DNA of 38,894 nucleotides from Bacteroidaceae bacterium (lineage in GTDB: Bacteria; Bacteroidota; Bacteroidia; Bacteroidales; Bacteroidaceae). The notes under the pieces were generated by a model that saw nothing but the letters and a program-made list of their open reading frames with translations, ran no database searches and was not told where the DNA came from. Location: contig JAFTEV010000045.1 in the NCBI GenBank assembly GCA_017453465.1, forward strand, positions 1-38,894. Direction: 5' to 3'. The position numbers were made by a program, and so were the translations under genes. How positions within the stretch are numbered: position 1 is the first letter of the stretch; every line of letters starts with the position of its first letter. Shown here in pieces: positions 2,491 to 38,894 of the stretch.

Positions 2491-5400
2491 CTTGAGCCGC
2501 TGCAAGAAGTCAATCTCCACGATGCGGAGTTCTCCTTTCACCTTTTCGCTGCCCGGTGTCTTGTAGAGGTCAAGCTCGGTGGCTGGGCCGCCAGCCAGTT
2601 CGGTGACTTGGCCAAAGGCATCCTTGTCGGTGGCGGTGCCTGTCTGACGGATGGTGTAGCGTTTGGCCTTGACGGGCTGGTCGATGAAGAGGGAGATGTA
2701 GCCCAGCGACTTGTCGGTGTTGCCCTTCCAGACGAGCTGGTCGTCGGCCAGCACTTCGAGCGGATAGGAGCGTTGCCGCCAGCCTGTCAGCTTGATGCTG
2801 ATTTCGTCGATGGCTGCCGGCTGGCTGAGTTCGTAGGTAATCCAGGCAGAGGAGAGTTTGCCGTCGTTCTTCCACTCCGACTGTTCGTTGTCATCCCAAC
2901 TGCTCTTCACGTCGGAGGCGTTGGCTCCAGCCGTGGCCGAAAGGATGCTGACGGTGCGCTTCTTGTCGGTGTAGGAAGGTGTGGCGGGTGTTTCGCCACG
3001 GTCGAGCACAGGGCGCAGGTGGTCTGAAGCGATGTAGCGCGACAGGCCCGCATTGATTTGCTGCGTGTCGGCTGTAGTGTTCCATGTCAGCACAGCATCC
3101 TTCATGCCCTTGGCACGTGCCGTCAGGCGGATAGTGCCAGGCTTCGTCGTGGAGCGCACCAACACGCGGTTCACGCCAGCCTCAACGGGCAGGTCGGTGG
3201 CAAGGATGTAGTTGTCCTGGTCGGGACTCTTGCCAATGCCGCCACGCCATTCGCCTTCGCCCGTGAGTGTCCAGTGGATGAAGCGGTTGTCCAGCGGGCA
3301 ACGCTGTCCGTTCTTATCTACAATCTCCACCTGCACCAGCGCGAGGTCGGCACCGTCGGCCTTCATGCCGCCATCGGGATTCTGCATCAGCGTGAGCTGG
3401 ATGTGGTCGGCTGGGCCTGCGGTCTGGTGTGTGGCCTCTGACTCTACGGTTGTGCCGTCAGCCGCATAGCTGATGGCTTTCACCTGTCCCGGGGCATAAT
3501 GCACGTTCTTGAAGGTGTGGAGGAAGGTGTATTCAGGCTTGTCGCTCTTGCCCACCGACTTGCCGTTGACAAAGAGCTCCACGACGGGCGAGGTCGATAC
3601 CACATACACGTCCTTCACCACGCCGTCGGGGTAGTTCCAGTGGCCAATGATGTAGCTGGCCTTGTGCTCCACATCGACCCAAGAGTTCCACATCACTTGG
3701 TTGGCAAAGAAGGCATCCTTCTCGATGCGCATGGCATCCACCACCCCACTCGTGCGGTAGTTCATTTCGCTGCGTCCGTGGGTGTTGGTGTCAGAGAAGA
3801 TAATCTTCACACCACCGCTGCTGACACGCCGCCCCATGCCGGGACGAACCACATAGTAGTCGTGCCAACGGCGAATTTGCTCGATGGTGAGCTGGTCTTG
3901 GTTCTGGTTGTAGATGTCGGCAGGAGCCTTGCGGTAGTAGGGGCCAGCCCCCCACTTGTGGTAGGGGTAGGAATAGTCGTCCCAGTACATGCGGTAGCCC
4001 TCGTCGCGGCAGTATTCCATGGCCCACACAGGGTGCCCCGCCGACTTGTTGATGTAGAGCATTTCGCCGCCATACTCGGCTTCGCTGATGTCGAGCATTT
4101 CGCGTGAACCGATGGCGCGTCCGCCGTGCGGGTCATACTGGTTGCGGATGGCCACCATCTCCTTCATGTGGTCGCGGCTGATACTCTCGTTGCCGCTTTC
4201 GTAGAAGATGATGCTGGGGTTGTTGCGGTTGTAGATGATGGCATCGCGCATCAGCTCGGTGCGCTGTGTCCAGTGTCGGCCCTCCACGTCCTTTTCGGCA
4301 TCGCCGGCGGGCATGGCCTGGATGAGTCCCACACGGTCGCACGACTCCACATCTTGGCGTGTGGGCGTGACGTGCATCCACCGCACCACGTTGCCACCCG
4401 ACTTCACCAGCAGGTCGTTGCTGTAGTCGGAGAGCCAGGCTGGTATGTCTATGCCGACCGAGGGCCACTCGTTGCTGGTGCGCTGGGCATAGCCGTGCAC
4501 CATGAGGCAGCGGTCGTTGAGCCAGATTTTGCCTTCGCCAAACTTTGTCTTGCGGAAGCCTGTGCGGATGGAGACCTCATCTGTAGCAGAGCCGTTAACC
4601 ACGAGGCTGGACTTGACCGTATAGAGATAGCCGTAGCCCCACGACCAGAAGTGAATGCCCGTAAGCCGCTTCTGGGCCGTAAGTGTAGCGGTGTCGCCAG
4701 CGGCTATGAGCTGCTGCCGGCCTGTGAACTTGCCCACTTGCTTGCCGTCGCCATCGAGGACAACCACCTGCAAGCCCACTTTCTGAGCCTTGGCCGAGGT
4801 GTTGATGACCTGTGCCTCGACGTTGGCCGTGACCTTCTTGCCCTGGATGTCATAGTCTGTGCCATAGACGTAGGTGCCTGTGGTGCCGAGGTTGGAGTAG
4901 AGCGGCAGCGTCTGATAGACATCGCCCAGCACGTGCAGATACACATTCTTGGGCAGACCGCCCATGTTCATGTTGAAGTTCTTGTTGTTCCACTGGAACG
5001 ACGTGGGTGCCAGCTGGTTGTTGGGCAGGTTGTTGCCGTCCTTGGTGGGAGCCGCATTCCGTGGCACCAGCAGTTCGGTGCCGTCGGGATTCTTCTCCTT
5101 GTAGGCCCAGTCGTTGTCGGTCAGCACCTCCAGACGGTTAGCCTTCCCTATATATAAATAAGGTGTCAGCTCGAAGCCAAAAGCCATTACACCGTTCTGG
5201 TGCAGTCCGAGGCGATGGCCGTTGAGCCACACTTCGGCACTCTGACGTGCACCCTCAAACTCGATGAACACATGCTTGCCAGCCCACTCCTGCGGTGCTG
5301 TGAACACCTTGGTGTAGCGGCACGTGTCGTCGGGCAGTTCGGCGATGCCCACACGGAAGGCGTAGTCCTCGTTCCAGGCGCGTGGCAGCGTCACCGTGCG

Positions 5401-29773: not shown

Positions 29774-31795
29774 TTACAATACATACACTGTTTCATCCCC
29801 ACAGATGTTCCTTATCTTCATCCGCAAGGGTTTTTGGTCGCTTCGAATGGTTGTATCCCAGAATTTCTGGGTCTTCTTACCATTGATGATGACATAGCCC
29901 AAGCGGTCAATCTTCACTTCCATATCACTGTGCCAAGTGGATTGTTTGTCTGCATTTTGGCAGTCAAGACCTACCCACTCTATTGTTTCCAATCCCTCAT
30001 CACTGATGCAGATGGGATTGAAAGTCTTGTCCTTGCCTCTGGCTCGCTGATGCGTGGCTTGTTGTTGTGCTTTGAGGTTCACCTCGCTAATCTTTTTCAG
30101 CACCCGGTCGCTGTGGAAACTTTCAATCGTAACCTGCCAACCACTCCACAAAGCATCGTGTGTCTCGTTCAGCACCCACTCCGCTTCATCCTCCACCACG
30201 ACGTCGTCCAGCACCTGCTTCAGGTCTCTCAGTTCAACATCAATAAGGGTCTGTCTATTTTCCTGTTTGATGAATTGTTCCATTTCTTGCCGATCTATGA
30301 TGTCAATGTAATAGACAATCACACGCTGTGTTTCATCGGGCAAGTCGGACAGTTGATGTATAATGTTTATCATCTGGGGCTTATCCATCAGTCGGGTGCT
30401 GCTGTCCAACAGATTAGGCAGATAGACCGGCATCATTCCCCGTCTGGAATGAATAATGCTGCCTGCCCAGAAATCACTCAGACCTTCAATCTTGCATAAG
30501 CCCTTAATCAAGCCCTTCAACTTATCCATCGTTTGGGCAGGATTCCGATAGAGTGACACACCATCCTTCACTTCCAACATTTCAAATTCTGCGCCATCTG
30601 CCAACAAGCGGTCTCTGGCTGTCTGTATGCTGTTGATGCCAATGTCGCAATGGATAAACCTGCGACCTGTTTTGTTGGCAACAGCAGCCGTCACACCGCT
30701 GCCACCAAAGAAGTCTGCCACCAACATTCCCTCATTGCTACTGGCTTTGATAATGCGCTCAAGAAGGGCTTCGGGTTTCTGTGTGGCATAGTCAACACGC
30801 TCGTCAGCTTGTGAATTGACAGCAAAAATGTCTGTCCATAAATCCTGTGCAGGAACCCCTTCCATTTCATCCAAATATTGCTTATATCTAGGAGTTCCAT
30901 TTGCTGTATAATAAAGACGGCCTTCTTTTTCCAGACGTTCCATTGTGGATATGGGACAACGCCAATATCCACTTTTCCCCTTCCATTCATACGTATAGCC
31001 AGAACCTTTCAAACCCTTTGCTGAAAGATCCCGATCTAAATATTTTCGTCCATCTTCATCTTTTTTATTATAGTACCGTCCGATATAGTCCTGTGAATAA
31101 GGAACTAACGGAGTGTTAAATAACAGCTCTGTACTTTTTGTATAATAAAATATACAATCATGCAAATTGGCAAATCCTGTACTATCGTTATGTGCAGTTG
31201 AACGTTTCCAAATTATCTCATTCCTAAAATTATCCTCTCCAAATATTTCATCCAAAAGAATCTTCACATAGTGCCCAATATGATAATCCAAATGCACATA
31301 AATACTGGCCTCCTCACTCATCACACTTTTTATCGCCATCAAGTTCTCATACATCCAGTTCAGGTATTTCTCCTTGTCCCACACGTCGCCATACATCTTT
31401 TCTTCAAAAGTCTTCAGTTCTTCCACATTCAGCTCACCCTCTGCCTGGGCAATCGCCTCGGCCACCTTGGGATTGCGACGAACATAGACTTTCTTAGCAT
31501 AGTCAGCACCACTGGCAAACGGCGGGTCAATATATACAAGGTCAACCTGCACGCCTTTGTCTTTCAGATAGGCGCAAGCAGAAAGACACTCCCCCCTAAT
31601 AATCATGTTGTGGCCAAGGTTCTCACCATGCCACTCTGTTTGTTTCATCTCATAAAGCGGCATTCCACGCTGGACGTGACTCACCACTTGACCGTTGTCA
31701 CGATAGCGTAACATTCGCTTCGTGCGAACAAAATTGTCTAAAACAGCCTGCCCCTCCAGTGTGTCAGGATAATAGGGAACATATTTGATTGCCAT
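29774..31795 (-). CDS. mod: Type III restriction-modification DNA methyltransferase
   Basis: This 673-residue subunit recognises the DNA site and methylates adenine at N6. The catalytic motif IV is IDPPF (DPPF at 90-93) and precedes the S-adenosylmethionine motif DFFGGSGVT (361-369), the beta-class order typical of type III Mod proteins. The region between (about 130-330) and the C-terminal part (about 430-640) would carry target recognition. It follows the res gene by 12 bp across a run of A residues (minus strand) that overlaps the res stop codon. Base composition is more AT-rich than that of the ABC exporter and NAD kinase upstream, in line with transfer. Both methylase motifs are intact. 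Confidence 0.93.
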   Translation of the reverse strand: MAIKYVPYYPDTLEGQAVLDNFVRTKRMLRYRDNGQVVSHVQRGMPLYEMKQTEWHGENLGHNMIIRGECLSACAYLKDKGVQVDLVYIDPPFASGADYAKKVYVRRNPKVAEAIAQAEGELNVEELKTFEEKMYGDVWDKEKYLNWMYENLMAIKSVMSEEASIYVHLDYHIGHYVKILLDEIFGEDNFRNEIIWKRSTAHNDSTGFANLHDCIFYYTKSTELLFNTPLVPYSQDYIGRYYNKKDEDGRKYLDRDLSAKGLKGSGYTYEWKGKSGYWRCPISTMERLEKEGRLYYTANGTPRYKQYLDEMEGVPAQDLWTDIFAVNSQADERVDYATQKPEALLERIIKASSNEGMLVADFFGGSGVTAAVANKTGRRFIHCDIGINSIQTARDRLLADGAEFEMLEVKDGVSLYRNPAQTMDKLKGLIKGLCKIEGLSDFWAGSIIHSRRGMMPVYLPNLLDSSTRLMDKPQMINIIHQLSDLPDETQRVIVYYIDIIDRQEMEQFIKQENRQTLIDVELRDLKQVLDDVVVEDEAEWVLNETHDALWSGWQVTIESFHSDRVLKKISEVNLKAQQQATHQRARGKDKTFNPICISDEGLETIEWVGLDCQNADKQSTWHSDMEVKIDRLGYVIINGKKTQKFWDTTIRSDQKPLRMKIRNICGDETVYVL

Positions 31796-31807
31796 AGTTT
31801 CTTTTTT

Positions 31808-34690
31808 TTACACGTTGAAAAACTTTTTAATTGCCGACAGTGCTTTCCTCCGACGCTCATCGGGAGCCAGCGTGTCTTCCAGATAGAGGAAGTCGAAACG
31901 CTCATAGCCAAACTTCTCGTTGTTCTTTTCGACAAATTCCGTTTCCATAAAATGCTTGCGCTCGGCAAACTTGGCAGCATAGCCTTCGCCCTTTGTCTCG
32001 ACAATAATCACTTTGTCAATGTTCTGTTGTCCGTCCCGGCTCAGTACCAAATAGTCAGGATAATACTTTCCGATGTATTCCCAATGCCGCCCTCTTTGAC
32101 TGTAGCAATTGACCGAGAACTCTGTCAGTGTGTCATCACCATTGAAATACACTTCCAGCTGCTGGTCTTTGATTGCCCTGATAAGAGGGACTATTTCTTG
32201 CGAGAAGAAGTCTCTCTCCAGACCGCTGTCGAAATGATAAGGCAAATAGTGGTAGGTCTGTGTGCGTTCCGGGTGCGGATCCTTCTGCGGGTGGATGGCC
32301 GACACGTCTTGTCCCATTGCTTTCAGTTGCTCCAACAACCTGAGCACTTCGGGCCTTTGCTCTTGCAACGGGGGATTTTCGTCCCATTGCAGAATTTCCT
32401 TCACTTCTGGCCGCGACGGATAGAATCGACCATCATCTTCTACAGGGGAAACAAGTTTTTCTATCTGAAGTAAGTTTGCCTTGCAGGGCAGCACTTCCTC
32501 TCTTACCTCATAGTCACGCACATCAGCAAATGCCCGACGAATGAGGGAGCGAACCTGCGGATGGTCATATTGCTTATTCTCCAACAAAAGCCCATCCTTT
32601 TCAATGGTTATCTTGCCAAATATATCCACAAGTTCCTTCTCGCAAGTTTTCAGTTCTTCGACAGAGAGCGTTCCGAAACTCTCCTTCGCTATCTGGTGCA
32701 GCCACCAGCGGAAAGACACAGGCGTTTCCTCCTGGTTCTCCTGTTCGTAGATTTCCACAATGCGACCTTCCAGGTCTTGCTGATGAATTAAGTCTATGTC
32801 GGCACGTGCCAGCACACCTTCTTCCTGCAAGCGTTGAGCCGGCTTGCACGATTCCTCAACGATAAGCGTTTCGTAACTCACCCTCAACTGGTAGAAGTCG
32901 ATTGGGGGCAGCTGCTGGCGTTCCATGCGTGAAAAGCGTTCCACACGCTGATGTCCGCCACGCGGCGTACCGAACTCCTTCAGCGTGATGTCCTGCTGCT
33001 TCTTCAGCTGCTTGTTCAGCGTGTCTGCATTGTACTTGTTCAGCCAGATCAGGGCTGTCTCCCGACTGTCACGCACCACCTGACGCAGACAGCGGCAACT
33101 GGTCTGCAGCACCATGTTGGTGGGACACACACCTTTCTGTGGCAGCACCACACCCGTAAGGCTCTTGCAGTCCCATCCCTCTTTCCCAATCTGCACCAAC
33201 AACACAATCTTTACAACCGAAAACGGCGTGTCGAGCAGGGCAAAAGTTTGGTCTGCGCCTTCCGGCTTGGGGTATTCTTTGTTGCCGCCATGATATTTCA
33301 GTATCACCTCCGTAGGGTTCAGCCCATAGGAGGACACCGTTTCAGCCACCAGTGGGTAGATGCTCCCTTCCAGCGTGGCAATCTGCCCACAATAGACAGC
33401 CAGCTTGGCACATGTGCCGTTTTCATATCTGGTATCTTTATATGCATCCAGAAAGTCCCTCACACCATTCAAGACAATGGTTTCCGTGTCGTTGTCAGCC
33501 AACCTCACACAGGGTTCCTTCAGGAAATTGCCAATGCCGTCGATGAGGGGATAATAATATACGACATTGGAAAGGTCGGTATTTCTGATGGTGAACTCAC
33601 CGGCCAGCGTGACATTCTCTGCACTGTCCAGATAAGGGGTGCCCGAAAAGCCCAGTACAGAATTGAACGTATTCTGCCTTGTCCAACCATTCACCACACG
33701 CCTCAGTTTGATGTCGCCGTCGGCAGCATGATGTACTTCATCGATATATACAGCCAAATGGGGAATCTTTCCAATGATGTCACGCAGCTCGTTGGCACGG
33801 TGAACTTTGTACCATTCCTGCTGCGACACAAACAGGGGCATAAGGCTCTCTTCGTAATGGTCAAGAATCACTTTCTCTGCATTCGTGATGGCCACCAGCC
33901 CCATTAAGTCTTCCAAGGGCTGATGGTTATTTATTTTCTGGGCATTGGGATTTTTGACCAAATTACTCTTGTTGGCCGTCTTCTGCTCGTCCAGCGTTTC
34001 AAACTTGACGAGCTGGCGCAGTTGGGCTGCCCTGGGTTCCGGGATAATCCACGAGGGGTCGAACTCCCGAATGTGCCTCAGGCTGGGCACGATGGAAGAC
34101 TTCAGTCCCGAAGGAGCCATCACCATGAAGTTGTGGGCAAAAGAGGGATTGTCGGGTTCGTTCTGTGCAAAATAGAGGTCAAGATAGATAAATGCAGCCA
34201 TCAGGTAGGTCTTGCCCGCCCCCATTGGCAAACTAAACAGGTAGTCGGTGTAATCTACATCGTAGAAAATTTTTTTGAACGTGGCCTCATAGTCTATCTT
34301 GTCTGCATTTCGCTTGATGAACTTCTCCAATTCTGGTGCCAACTGACGCCCGTTCTTGTCTTTGAGCCTGGAATACTGAAACAGAGCCACAGCCGCTTTG
34401 TTCACAGCAAAGATTTGCCGCGCAGTCTCTGTCAGTTCCACACTCCCAATGTCGGTATCATTGAAGGTGCCAGCAACAAAGAGTGCCCACAGTGGCTGGT
34501 TCTGGCAAGCTATCTTCAAGTATAGATAGGTCTTGATAGCTTCAAGCTGCGCATCGCGCATCATTCCGCGCTGTCTGATGTAGGCAAGCAAATCGAGTAC
34601 CGTGCACCGGTCGGATGCCAGCCATTCGTCCCGTTTTTTTTCAATGAGTTTATAAAACATTGTCCAAATCTCTTTTTTAACATTGGTCAC
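31808..34690 (-). CDS. res: Type III restriction enzyme helicase-nuclease subunit
   Basis: This 960-residue subunit translocates on DNA and cuts unmethylated sites together with Mod. Walker A is LPMGAGKT (GAGKT at 157-161), the DEAH-box equivalent is IDEVHH (317 on), and the helicase C-terminal motifs appear as IGKEGWDCKS and QTSCRCLRQVVR. The PD-(D/E)xK nuclease lies at the end: D879 in YPDYLV, with E898 and K900 in VETKG. ATG 34690 overlaps the ABC exporter stop by 14 bp; ATG 34660 (MFYKLIEKK) is an alternative start. The res-before-mod order is the reverse of the classic EcoP1-type operon. All enzymatic motifs look intact, so the system is probably active. Confidence 0.93.
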   Translation of the reverse strand: MTNVKKEIWTMFYKLIEKKRDEWLASDRCTVLDLLAYIRQRGMMRDAQLEAIKTYLYLKIACQNQPLWALFVAGTFNDTDIGSVELTETARQIFAVNKAAVALFQYSRLKDKNGRQLAPELEKFIKRNADKIDYEATFKKIFYDVDYTDYLFSLPMGAGKTYLMAAFIYLDLYFAQNEPDNPSFAHNFMVMAPSGLKSSIVPSLRHIREFDPSWIIPEPRAAQLRQLVKFETLDEQKTANKSNLVKNPNAQKINNHQPLEDLMGLVAITNAEKVILDHYEESLMPLFVSQQEWYKVHRANELRDIIGKIPHLAVYIDEVHHAADGDIKLRRVVNGWTRQNTFNSVLGFSGTPYLDSAENVTLAGEFTIRNTDLSNVVYYYPLIDGIGNFLKEPCVRLADNDTETIVLNGVRDFLDAYKDTRYENGTCAKLAVYCGQIATLEGSIYPLVAETVSSYGLNPTEVILKYHGGNKEYPKPEGADQTFALLDTPFSVVKIVLLVQIGKEGWDCKSLTGVVLPQKGVCPTNMVLQTSCRCLRQVVRDSRETALIWLNKYNADTLNKQLKKQQDITLKEFGTPRGGHQRVERFSRMERQQLPPIDFYQLRVSYETLIVEESCKPAQRLQEEGVLARADIDLIHQQDLEGRIVEIYEQENQEETPVSFRWWLHQIAKESFGTLSVEELKTCEKELVDIFGKITIEKDGLLLENKQYDHPQVRSLIRRAFADVRDYEVREEVLPCKANLLQIEKLVSPVEDDGRFYPSRPEVKEILQWDENPPLQEQRPEVLRLLEQLKAMGQDVSAIHPQKDPHPERTQTYHYLPYHFDSGLERDFFSQEIVPLIRAIKDQQLEVYFNGDDTLTEFSVNCYSQRGRHWEYIGKYYPDYLVLSRDGQQNIDKVIIVETKGEGYAAKFAERKHFMETEFVEKNNEKFGYERFDFLYLEDTLAPDERRRKALSAIKKFFNV

Positions 34691-37441: not shown

Positions 37442-37518
37442 AAAGTTTTCATGCCGTTCCTGCTCTTCGGCGACCTTTCTTGGGGTCGCCGTTTTCACAG
37501 GGACGGCATGAAAACTTT
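37442..37518. repeat. Nested double hairpin downstream of the FGE-fold gene
   Basis: Outer arms of 21 bp (37442-37462 and 37498-37518, one mismatch; core TTTTCATGCCGT) enclose an inner perfect 8-bp stem, CGGCGACC/GGTCGCCG (37468-37475 and 37484-37491), with an 8-base loop. Read on the minus strand it begins 37 nt after the stop codon of the secreted gene and could be its terminator. It could also be the recognition hairpin that follows variable repeats in diversity-generating retroelements. Confidence 0.75.
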
Positions 37519-37554
37519 TTAAGTCATTCTTTTTTCTCTTTTTTGAGGCTGAAC

Positions 37555-37662
37555 TTAGAGAGCAAGGCGGAGGCCGAGGAAGTAGTACGCGTTCGTGGGC
37601 GCGCTGTAGTACCGATTCGTCACACGACAGAGCCTGGCTGAGTAGTCCCAGCTACCACCACG
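37555..37662 (-). other. Candidate variable repeat (VR) of a diversity-generating retroelement
   Basis: After RGGSW the codons for likely surface residues are GAC, TAC, CTC, TAC, TAC, AGC, AAC, TAC, TAC, TTC and CTC: all of the form NNC, as expected if an AAC (or ATC) template codon had its adenines randomised. The intervening scaffold codons use mixed third bases. The array lies at 37576-37647 and is followed by a GC-rich constant end (GLRLAL, 37555-37575) like an initiation-of-mutagenic-homing site. No reverse transcriptase or template repeat was found in the window. Confidence 0.55.
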
Positions 37663-38894
37663 AAGCACGCGGTTAGAGCCCGTAGTAGGACCAGTAGGAT
37701 TGGACTGGGCAGAAGAATCATAGTTACCCTTCCAATCTTGGCACCATTCCCACACATTACCGCTCATGTCATACAGACCAAGCTCGTTGGCTTGCTTCGA
37801 GCCTACCTCATGGGTCTTCCTGCCGCTGTTCTCCGTGTACCACGCCACATCGCCGAGGGTGTTGCTGCCTGAGTACTTGTAGCCCTGGCTCTTCGTGCCG
37901 CCGCGTGCCGCAAACTCCCATTCGGCCTCAGTAGGCAGGCGGAAGGTCTTGCCCGTCAGTTGGTTCAGCTTCGTGATGAAGGTCTGGCAGTCGTTCCAGC
38001 TTACCTTTTCCACTGGCAAGTTGTCACCCAGCCAGTTGGAAGGATTGCTGCCCATGACGGCCACCCAGAGGGCCTGCGTCACCTCGGTCTCGCCTATCTG
38101 ATAGTCGCTCAGGGTCACGTTGTGAACGGGGGCTTCATCATCGTCAGCATCGGCATCGTAGTTGGTGCCGGAGGCATCTGTATTCTGTGCACCCATCAAG
38201 AACGTGCCGCCATAGACGTACACCATATTGAACGACACGCCGTTCACCGTGTAGGTGGTGGTGTAGCCCACCGTCACCTCGCAGGTGGCTGTTGCAGAGC
38301 CTACCGACGCTGTGATGGTGGCAGTGCCTTCGCCCACAGCTGTAACAAAACCACTGATTACGGTGGCTACGCTCTCATCGCTCGAAGTCCATGTCACAGT
38401 CCCGGCATCTGCGGGAACAACGGTGGCCGTCAAGCGCACATATTCATCGGGCTTCAGGCTGAGTGAAGTCTCAGAGAGGGTGATGCTGGCAGGCTGAGCA
38501 GCAGTATAGACTGTGATGCTGGCCCCCAGACTGGTGACCAAATAATCTGAAGTGACATCTTCAATCTTGAGCAGGGAGACGGGTCTGCCTGTCGAATCAT
38601 AGAAAAGGACTGTGCCCAGCTGCGGACGGAACTTGTAGGTGCAGCCAGCAAGATAGTCGGTGGTTCCGTCGGCATTGAATGTGATGCTTTCGGTTGCCGA
38701 TTTGTACCATGTGCCCACAACGAGGCTGTTGTCCACCGAGAAGGGGTCGGCCTTGGTTTCAATCAGTTCGGTCTCGCCCGTGAGGTAGCCGTCAATGACC
38801 ATGGTCACGTCGCCCACATCGAGCGCATTGTTGTGGTTCAGGTCGCCGTTAATCACTTGTGCGCTGGCCATGGCGGGCAGCAGCACGGCTGCAA
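37555..38894 (-). CDS. Secreted protein with dockerin-like, Big2 and formylglycine-enzyme-fold domains (5' end outside window)
   Basis: The reading frame runs through the window edge, so the true start and most of the signal peptide are missing (visible: LLPAMASAQ at its end). About 440 residues remain. A dockerin-like calcium repeat (GDLNHNNALDVGDV) comes first, then a lipocalin-like or unassigned strand region. A Big2 Ig-like domain (about 135-205; VTWTSSDESVATV) precedes the FGE-sulfatase/C-type-lectin fold (about 215-443), which has EVTQALW, RLPTEAEWEFAARGG, LYDMSGNVWEWCQDW and RVLRGGSW. The active-site cysteine pair of true formylglycine enzymes is not evident, so a binding rather than catalytic role is likely. 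The last 35 codons look like a retroelement variable region (separate entry). Confidence 0.85.
   Translation of the reverse strand, partial: AAVLLPAMASAQVINGDLNHNNALDVGDVTMVIDGYLTGETELIETKADPFSVDNSLVVGTWYKSATESITFNADGTTDYLAGCTYKFRPQLGTVLFYDSTGRPVSLLKIEDVTSDYLVTSLGASITVYTAAQPASITLSETSLSLKPDEYVRLTATVVPADAGTVTWTSSDESVATVISGFVTAVGEGTATITASVGSATATCEVTVGYTTTYTVNGVSFNMVYVYGGTFLMGAQNTDASGTNYDADADDDEAPVHNVTLSDYQIGETEVTQALWVAVMGSNPSNWLGDNLPVEKVSWNDCQTFITKLNQLTGKTFRLPTEAEWEFAARGGTKSQGYKYSGSNTLGDVAWYTENSGRKTHEVGSKQANELGLYDMSGNVWEWCQDWKGNYDSSAQSNPTGPTTGSNRVLRGGSWDYSARLCRVTNRYYSAPTNAYYFLGLRLAL

Follow-up and report, generated by a model that had tools for sequence, protein, structure and literature searches.

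A candidate FGE-type DGR variable repeat, orphaned in its assembly, at the 3' end of a Bacteroidaceae gene

RESULTS

The same repeat ends three FGE genes

We hold with high confidence that the 3' end of a gene at the edge of a Bacteroidaceae contig is a genuine variable repeat (VR) of an FGE-type diversity-generating retroelement (DGR), whose machinery either was lost recently or works in trans, from a locus that is mobile or was left unassembled. The window, that is, the whole stretch of DNA analysed (38,894 nucleotides; contig C27), belongs to an assembly (G000) of 3.16 Mb in 108 contigs that is 85% complete and 6% contaminated; given this contamination, the origin of all contigs from a single organism is an assumption. 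The comparisons below show, at three loci of the assembly and one locus of a congener, the pattern that would be left by rewriting of a VR from one template. The VR is termed an orphan because neither a matching template nor a cognate reverse transcriptase was found in the assembly.

The target gene (37555..38892, minus strand) is truncated at its 5' end by the contig end; the remaining frame spans 445 residues and runs off the edge. It encodes an N-terminal module, a Big_2 Ig-like domain (38275..38487, minus strand; residues 136-206; E = 2.9e-12), and an FGE-sulfatase domain of the C-type-lectin type (PF03781, profile match; 37561..38229, minus strand). The top sequence match among solved structures was 2y3c, Treponema denticola variable protein 1 (E = 1.3e-42), and the variable stretch of the window protein aligned with the RGGSW...GFRLA end of that protein. 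On this homology, the C terminus is assigned a C-type-lectin (FGE) fold; FGE-type C-type-lectin folds have been described for Mtd and TvpA (PMC5006420). The product is probably a secreted binding protein with a diversified lectin-like face.

A preliminary description had placed a possible DGR variable region at 37555-37662, and these limits proved exact: they hold the stop codon and the last 35 codons (105 nt), which encode RGGSWDYSARLCRVTNRYYSAPTNAYYFLGLRLAL. The VR itself (37558..37662, minus strand) is delimited by sibling copies on contigs C47 and C60 and by templates of relatives. A PF03781 search of the assembly gave ten matches in nine genes, two of them within one frame on C101, and the same 105-nt repeat terminated three of the nine genes (C27 in the window, C47, and C60). 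The ends of the other FGE genes differed in third positions or in length, and VR status was not supported for them. Among the three VRs, 23 columns differed in total. Twenty-one of these lay in a hypervariable core of 68 columns (37580..37647, minus strand), all 21 at codon position 1 or 2, and 19 had A in at least one copy; upstream in the same domains, 76 of the 133 variable columns showed an A in one or more copies. The two remaining differences (columns 86 and 101) fell within the 22 columns of a GC-rich constant end, as the preliminary description had it (37558..37579, minus strand; encoding LGLRLAL); both are third positions and were counted against the DGR reading. By analogy with the findings of Guo et al. 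2011 (PMC3240598), this IMH-like end may act as the IMH. The stop codon and the next 10 nt (37545..37557, minus strand) share 12 of 13 bases with both C60 and C47, and homology of C27 with the two siblings stops within the next few tens of bases.

The preliminary description had also given every likely variable residue an NNC codon, which did not hold. Fourteen codons vary among the three VRs, and a fifteenth, at which the templates of relatives have AAC or AAT, was added by hand; 10 of the 15 are NNC, and the others (TCA, ACG, AAT, GCG, and GCG) are those that ACA, ACG, and AAT template codons would be expected to yield. As proof of a VR, NNC bias was discarded as weak, the background in the rest of the gene being 42% of codons. 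The RGGSW...R...GLRLAL pattern is present as described and is not diagnostic, since RGGSW...GFR also stands near the end of the C101 FGE protein, which is not a VR protein by the same tests and which we take to be GldK-like. Because of this background and this second occurrence, motif and NNC codons alone are unconvincing.

Third codon positions of the core are identical in four VRs from two species

Third positions of the core were compared with those of the upstream FGE domain. Within the assembly, 0 of 22 core third positions differed in any pair, and the upstream domain differed at 69/174 (C27-C47), 42/178 (C27-C60), and 68/172 (C60-C47) third positions, that is, at 24 to 40%. When 45 genomes of the genus were searched with the window VR (E ≤ 0.001), matches were confined to this assembly and to congener G037, in which a gene on contig C19 ends in the same VR. 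Its core again differed at 0/22 third positions from each of C27, C47, and C60, with 65/171, 64/169, and 72/177 differences upstream. For the six pairs of these four VRs, Fisher's exact p for core versus upstream ranged from 0.004 to 2.5e-5. All 22 variable core columns of the four VRs lay at codon position 1 or 2, and 21 of the 22 included A.

A second G037 copy (C46) fitted less well: it differed from each of the four VRs at 2/22 core third positions, and the core was not clearly lower than upstream in all pairs (p = 0.054, 0.026, 0.006, and 0.072). With this copy added, 26 of 28 variable columns lay at positions 1 or 2, and 26 of 28 included A. For the four VRs, it would appear that the non-A sites are fixed by copying from one template. 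Identity of all 22 core third positions in four VRs of two species implies that the last rewriting was recent relative to the divergence of the genes.

Relatives carry FGE-type templates with A at the variable columns

A survey of 399 sampled genomes of the family, with the C47 VR as the query and at most two candidates scored per genome, so that templates may be missed, gave matches in 35 genomes. Twenty of these, our own included, were examined, the remaining 15 being mostly weak matches. FGE-type templates were present in six (G012, G201, G305, G308, G277, and G378), and the other examined matches were FGE genes or lacked the motif. In four genomes, the template was paired with a nearby VR, and mismatches fell at template A in 52 of 54 cases (G201, 17/17; G305, 13/13; G308, 11/12; G012, 11/12). 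At the 21 variable columns of our own genome, these independent templates read A in 20 (G201), 20 (G305), 18 (G308), and 19 (G012) cases; at the 47 constant core columns, they did so in 9, 8, 7, and 8 cases, respectively. Sibling copies and independent templates together thus place nearly all of the core variation at what would be template A. The tentative preliminary assignment of a DGR variable region to the end of an FGE protein is borne out by these comparisons, in which the cores of the VRs differ at codon positions 1 and 2, almost exclusively in A-compatible columns that match template As. The G201 template reads RGGSWNNNATNCRVANRNNNTPTNTNNNLGLRLAQ, and its peptide agrees with that of the template proposed below at 31 of 35 residues.

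The FGE-type cis DGRs are arranged as a target, then a small accessory frame, then the reverse transcriptase, and last the template. An HRDC domain is encoded by the accessory gene in G012, the one genome in which this domain was tested and found; the accessory frame of G201 had no PHROGs match. HRDC (PF00570) and MSL (PF01624, MutS domain I) are described as DGR accessories (PMC10053308). The reverse transcriptases beside the four paired templates are 43 to 51% identical to each other. In G277, an accessory-like frame, a reverse transcriptase, and a template lie close to a contig end.

Several further loci were recorded. G012 has two tandem FGE-type frames before the DGR core (L052, 5622-7322), of which the second alone is paired with the template. 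In G378 (L126, 3894-4181; contig C33), the template (about 4052-4181) stands beside a C-terminal reverse transcriptase piece (3894-4022) that covers only profile residues 285-327; the locus looks like a decayed DGR, and decay therefore seems to occur in this family. One more template/VR pairing beyond the four above, called in L126, was discarded as a low-complexity repeat. No template pair was present in L111, L113, or L115, the three loci examined of 12 found. Two congeners each carry two DGR template/VR pairs of a different type, with mismatches at A of 14/14 and 15/15 in G013 (L050 and L051) and of 22/22 and 9/10 in G044 (L048 and L054).

The assembly holds a different, complete DGR

The near-repeat search on which the orphan status depends was run over the whole assembly (85% complete; E ≤ 0.001; 15 of 15 candidates scored). 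It gave seven places, all of them FGE genes and the window gene among them, and no matching template. Searches of the assembly with RVT_1, the C104 and G012 reverse transcriptases, and a four-sequence profile found one reverse transcriptase, on C104, and the G012 query and profile found no cognate enzyme in G000 or G037, both about 85% complete. Of the refuting condition set in the preliminary description, a genome with neither template repeat nor DGR reverse transcriptase, the searches bear out the part on the matching template and the cognate enzyme, but the assembly is not free of DGRs: C104 carries a second, complete cis DGR (L019, 565-4158). This element consists of a target with Big_2 and an Lcl_C-like domain, the latter below Pfam's cutoff (565-1869), a MutS_I-like accessory gene (2034-2579), a template with 22/22 mismatches at A (2756-2956), and the reverse transcriptase (2983-4158). 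As the writer of the window VR, the C104 template (SVRAVCP type) was rejected: it has no similarity to the VR, which had no match in L019 at E ≤ 10.

A phage or plasmid source found no support: the VR had no match (E ≤ 0.01) among 50,697 phage and 72,556 plasmid records, collections that may omit records near the window's genome. Under the same proviso on near-window records, no viral contig contained a 21-base piece of the proposed template exactly, and the G201 reverse transcriptase matched eight viral loci at no more than 34% identity in the best segment.

Contigs C27 and C60 stop at an identical point within two copies of the target gene, which do not differ at any of the 141 bases nearest that end (window 38754-38894; L020 10280-10420 on C60). 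A repeat has probably broken the assembly here.

A long hairpin follows the VR

The preliminary description had noted a hairpin after the constant end, and one was found with strong folding potential by computation (37442..37518, minus strand), beginning 36 nt after the stop codon. Its 21-nt arms (37442-37462 and 37498-37518) are 95% complementary and enclose a 5/4 internal loop, an inner 8-bp stem, and an 8-nt loop; the z-score, folded as DNA, is −8.9. An ordinary terminator was discounted, as a terminator scan did not call the hairpin. The G037 C19 VR is also followed by a copy (89% identical). No further copy was found in our own genome at E ≤ 0.001, and the C47 VR lacks a simple long inverted repeat downstream (score, 6).

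Two surveys addressed such repeats more widely. In the first, an inverted repeat scoring at least 15 lay within 150 nt of 11 of 25 VRs or presumed VRs (12 of the 25 assigned by motif alone, and cis pairs counted from the repeat end, which is not always the stop), 0 of 9 templates, and 10 of 138 controls, which were stop-to-stop frames on both strands and hence include false genes. In the second, long inverted repeats followed 9 of 21 VR-like genes, picked by C-terminal motif and including FGE paralogs that are possibly not VRs, and 12 of 148 other genes, taken as the longest nonoverlapping open reading frames (p = 1.5e-4); some of the 12 control hits are AT-rich simple repeats. In BPP-1, the hairpin is needed for efficient retrohoming, a role proposed as general (Guo et al. 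2011, PMC3240598). A literature search returned no paper on hairpins in Bacteroidales DGRs, and no novelty is claimed for the longer hairpins.

DISCUSSION

We propose that a template reading about RGGSWNNTARNCRVTNRNNNTPTNTNNNLGLRLAL, a reading drawn from the sibling VRs and the templates of relatives and present in no sequence found, would have been reverse transcribed with random bases opposite A. The resulting cDNA would have replaced the ends of the window gene, the C47 and C60 genes, and one congener gene, after these genes had diverged, with retrohoming at the GC-rich end possibly assisted by the hairpin. The cognate reverse transcriptase would be of the HRDC-associated type; it would either serve the VR in trans, its locus being mobile or missing from the contigs, or have been lost recently. 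With the assembly 85% complete, the orphan state may reflect machinery that lies elsewhere or a relic, the two readings already offered in the preliminary description.

The relic reading, in which the writing DGR was lost from the lineage and the VR is now frozen, overlaps the last clause of our preferred explanation and is a serious contender, although we lean somewhat against it. Consistent with it are the failure to find a template or cognate enzyme in either G000 or G037, each about 85% complete, the G378 template with its residual reverse transcriptase piece, and T. denticola SP32, which is thought to keep a remote VR left over from a lost DGR (PMC4891356). Against it, the invariant core third positions of four VRs in two species place the last rewriting recently, the assembly lacks about 15% of the genome, and the C27 and C60 contigs both break off within the target gene.

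That the C104 reverse transcriptase also serves the window VR, by way of a second template elsewhere, is quite improbable. It is the sole such enzyme that the assembly searches found, its DGR looks intact by its 22/22 mismatches at A, and its target has the window gene's N-terminal module (57% identity over 223 alignment columns). Its own template is nevertheless unrelated to the window VR, the four cis FGE-type templates accompany another reverse transcriptase group, the G012 enzyme matches it in pieces only (31 to 34%), and its accessory is MutS_I-like, versus HRDC in G012. Scarcely credible is an origin without any DGR, in which these are ordinary FGE paralogs shaped by diversifying selection or by gene conversion: the C60 gene is 91% identical to that of C27, the motif recurs in a non-VR protein, and NNC codons are common in the gene, but neither process limits changes to A-compatible columns or leaves all 22 third positions unchanged when as many as 18 of the 68 core bases differ between VRs, and the variable columns coincide with A positions of independent templates.

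The preferred reading, a genuine VR written in trans or recently orphaned, has parallels in known systems. The T. denticola DGR (2y3c; PMC4891356) shares the FGE-type C-type-lectin target with its RGGSW...GFRLA end, and several remote VRs there derive from one template; the window target differs in its Big_2 scaffold and in that searches found neither its template nor its reverse transcriptase. The G201, G305, G308, and G012 elements have template peptides resembling the proposed one and differ in being complete, in cis, and equipped with other N-terminal target modules. A GC-rich VR end followed by a hairpin or cruciform, as at the window VR, is described for BPP-1 (PMC3240598). The hairpins of BPP-1 and other phages in that report have 7- to 10-bp stems and 4-nt GRNA loops, whereas the window hairpin, with its longer interrupted arms, lacks the GRNA loop. 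In Thiohalocapsa PB-PSB1, as reported in PMC10907252, a distant template agrees with the targets of DGRs 4 and 5 wherever it does not read A, the targets of DGR 6 end in FGE domains, and those of DGR 7 have no match elsewhere in the genome, with an intact template and reverse transcriptase held by long-read variants. DGR 7 is a close parallel to the window VR. Reads prove diversification in Thiohalocapsa, whereas the window VR is known from sequence comparison alone.

The window VR adds one case to the already known phenomena of remote, trans-diversified, and leftover VRs. It illustrates that a DGR target can be recognized without its own template, from sibling copies and the templates of relatives alone, and that this genome joins one N-terminal scaffold to two different types of DGR target end. 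With core third positions the same in both species, one may ask whether FGE-type DGR cassettes pass from one of these bacteria to another and act in trans on targets resident there. A broader proposal, speculative and on balance doubtful, is that one FGE-type template, part of a mobile or shared cassette, rewrote genes in two species although the searches found its machinery in neither assembly, and that a long two-storey hairpin marks many Bacteroidales targets. If true, such a cassette would diversify resident chromosomal targets in trans and then move on.

Elsewhere in the window (29777-34690, minus strand), a DNA methylase (N6_N4_Mtase) adjoins a protein whose match to ResIII is weak, and the two perhaps form a type III restriction system.
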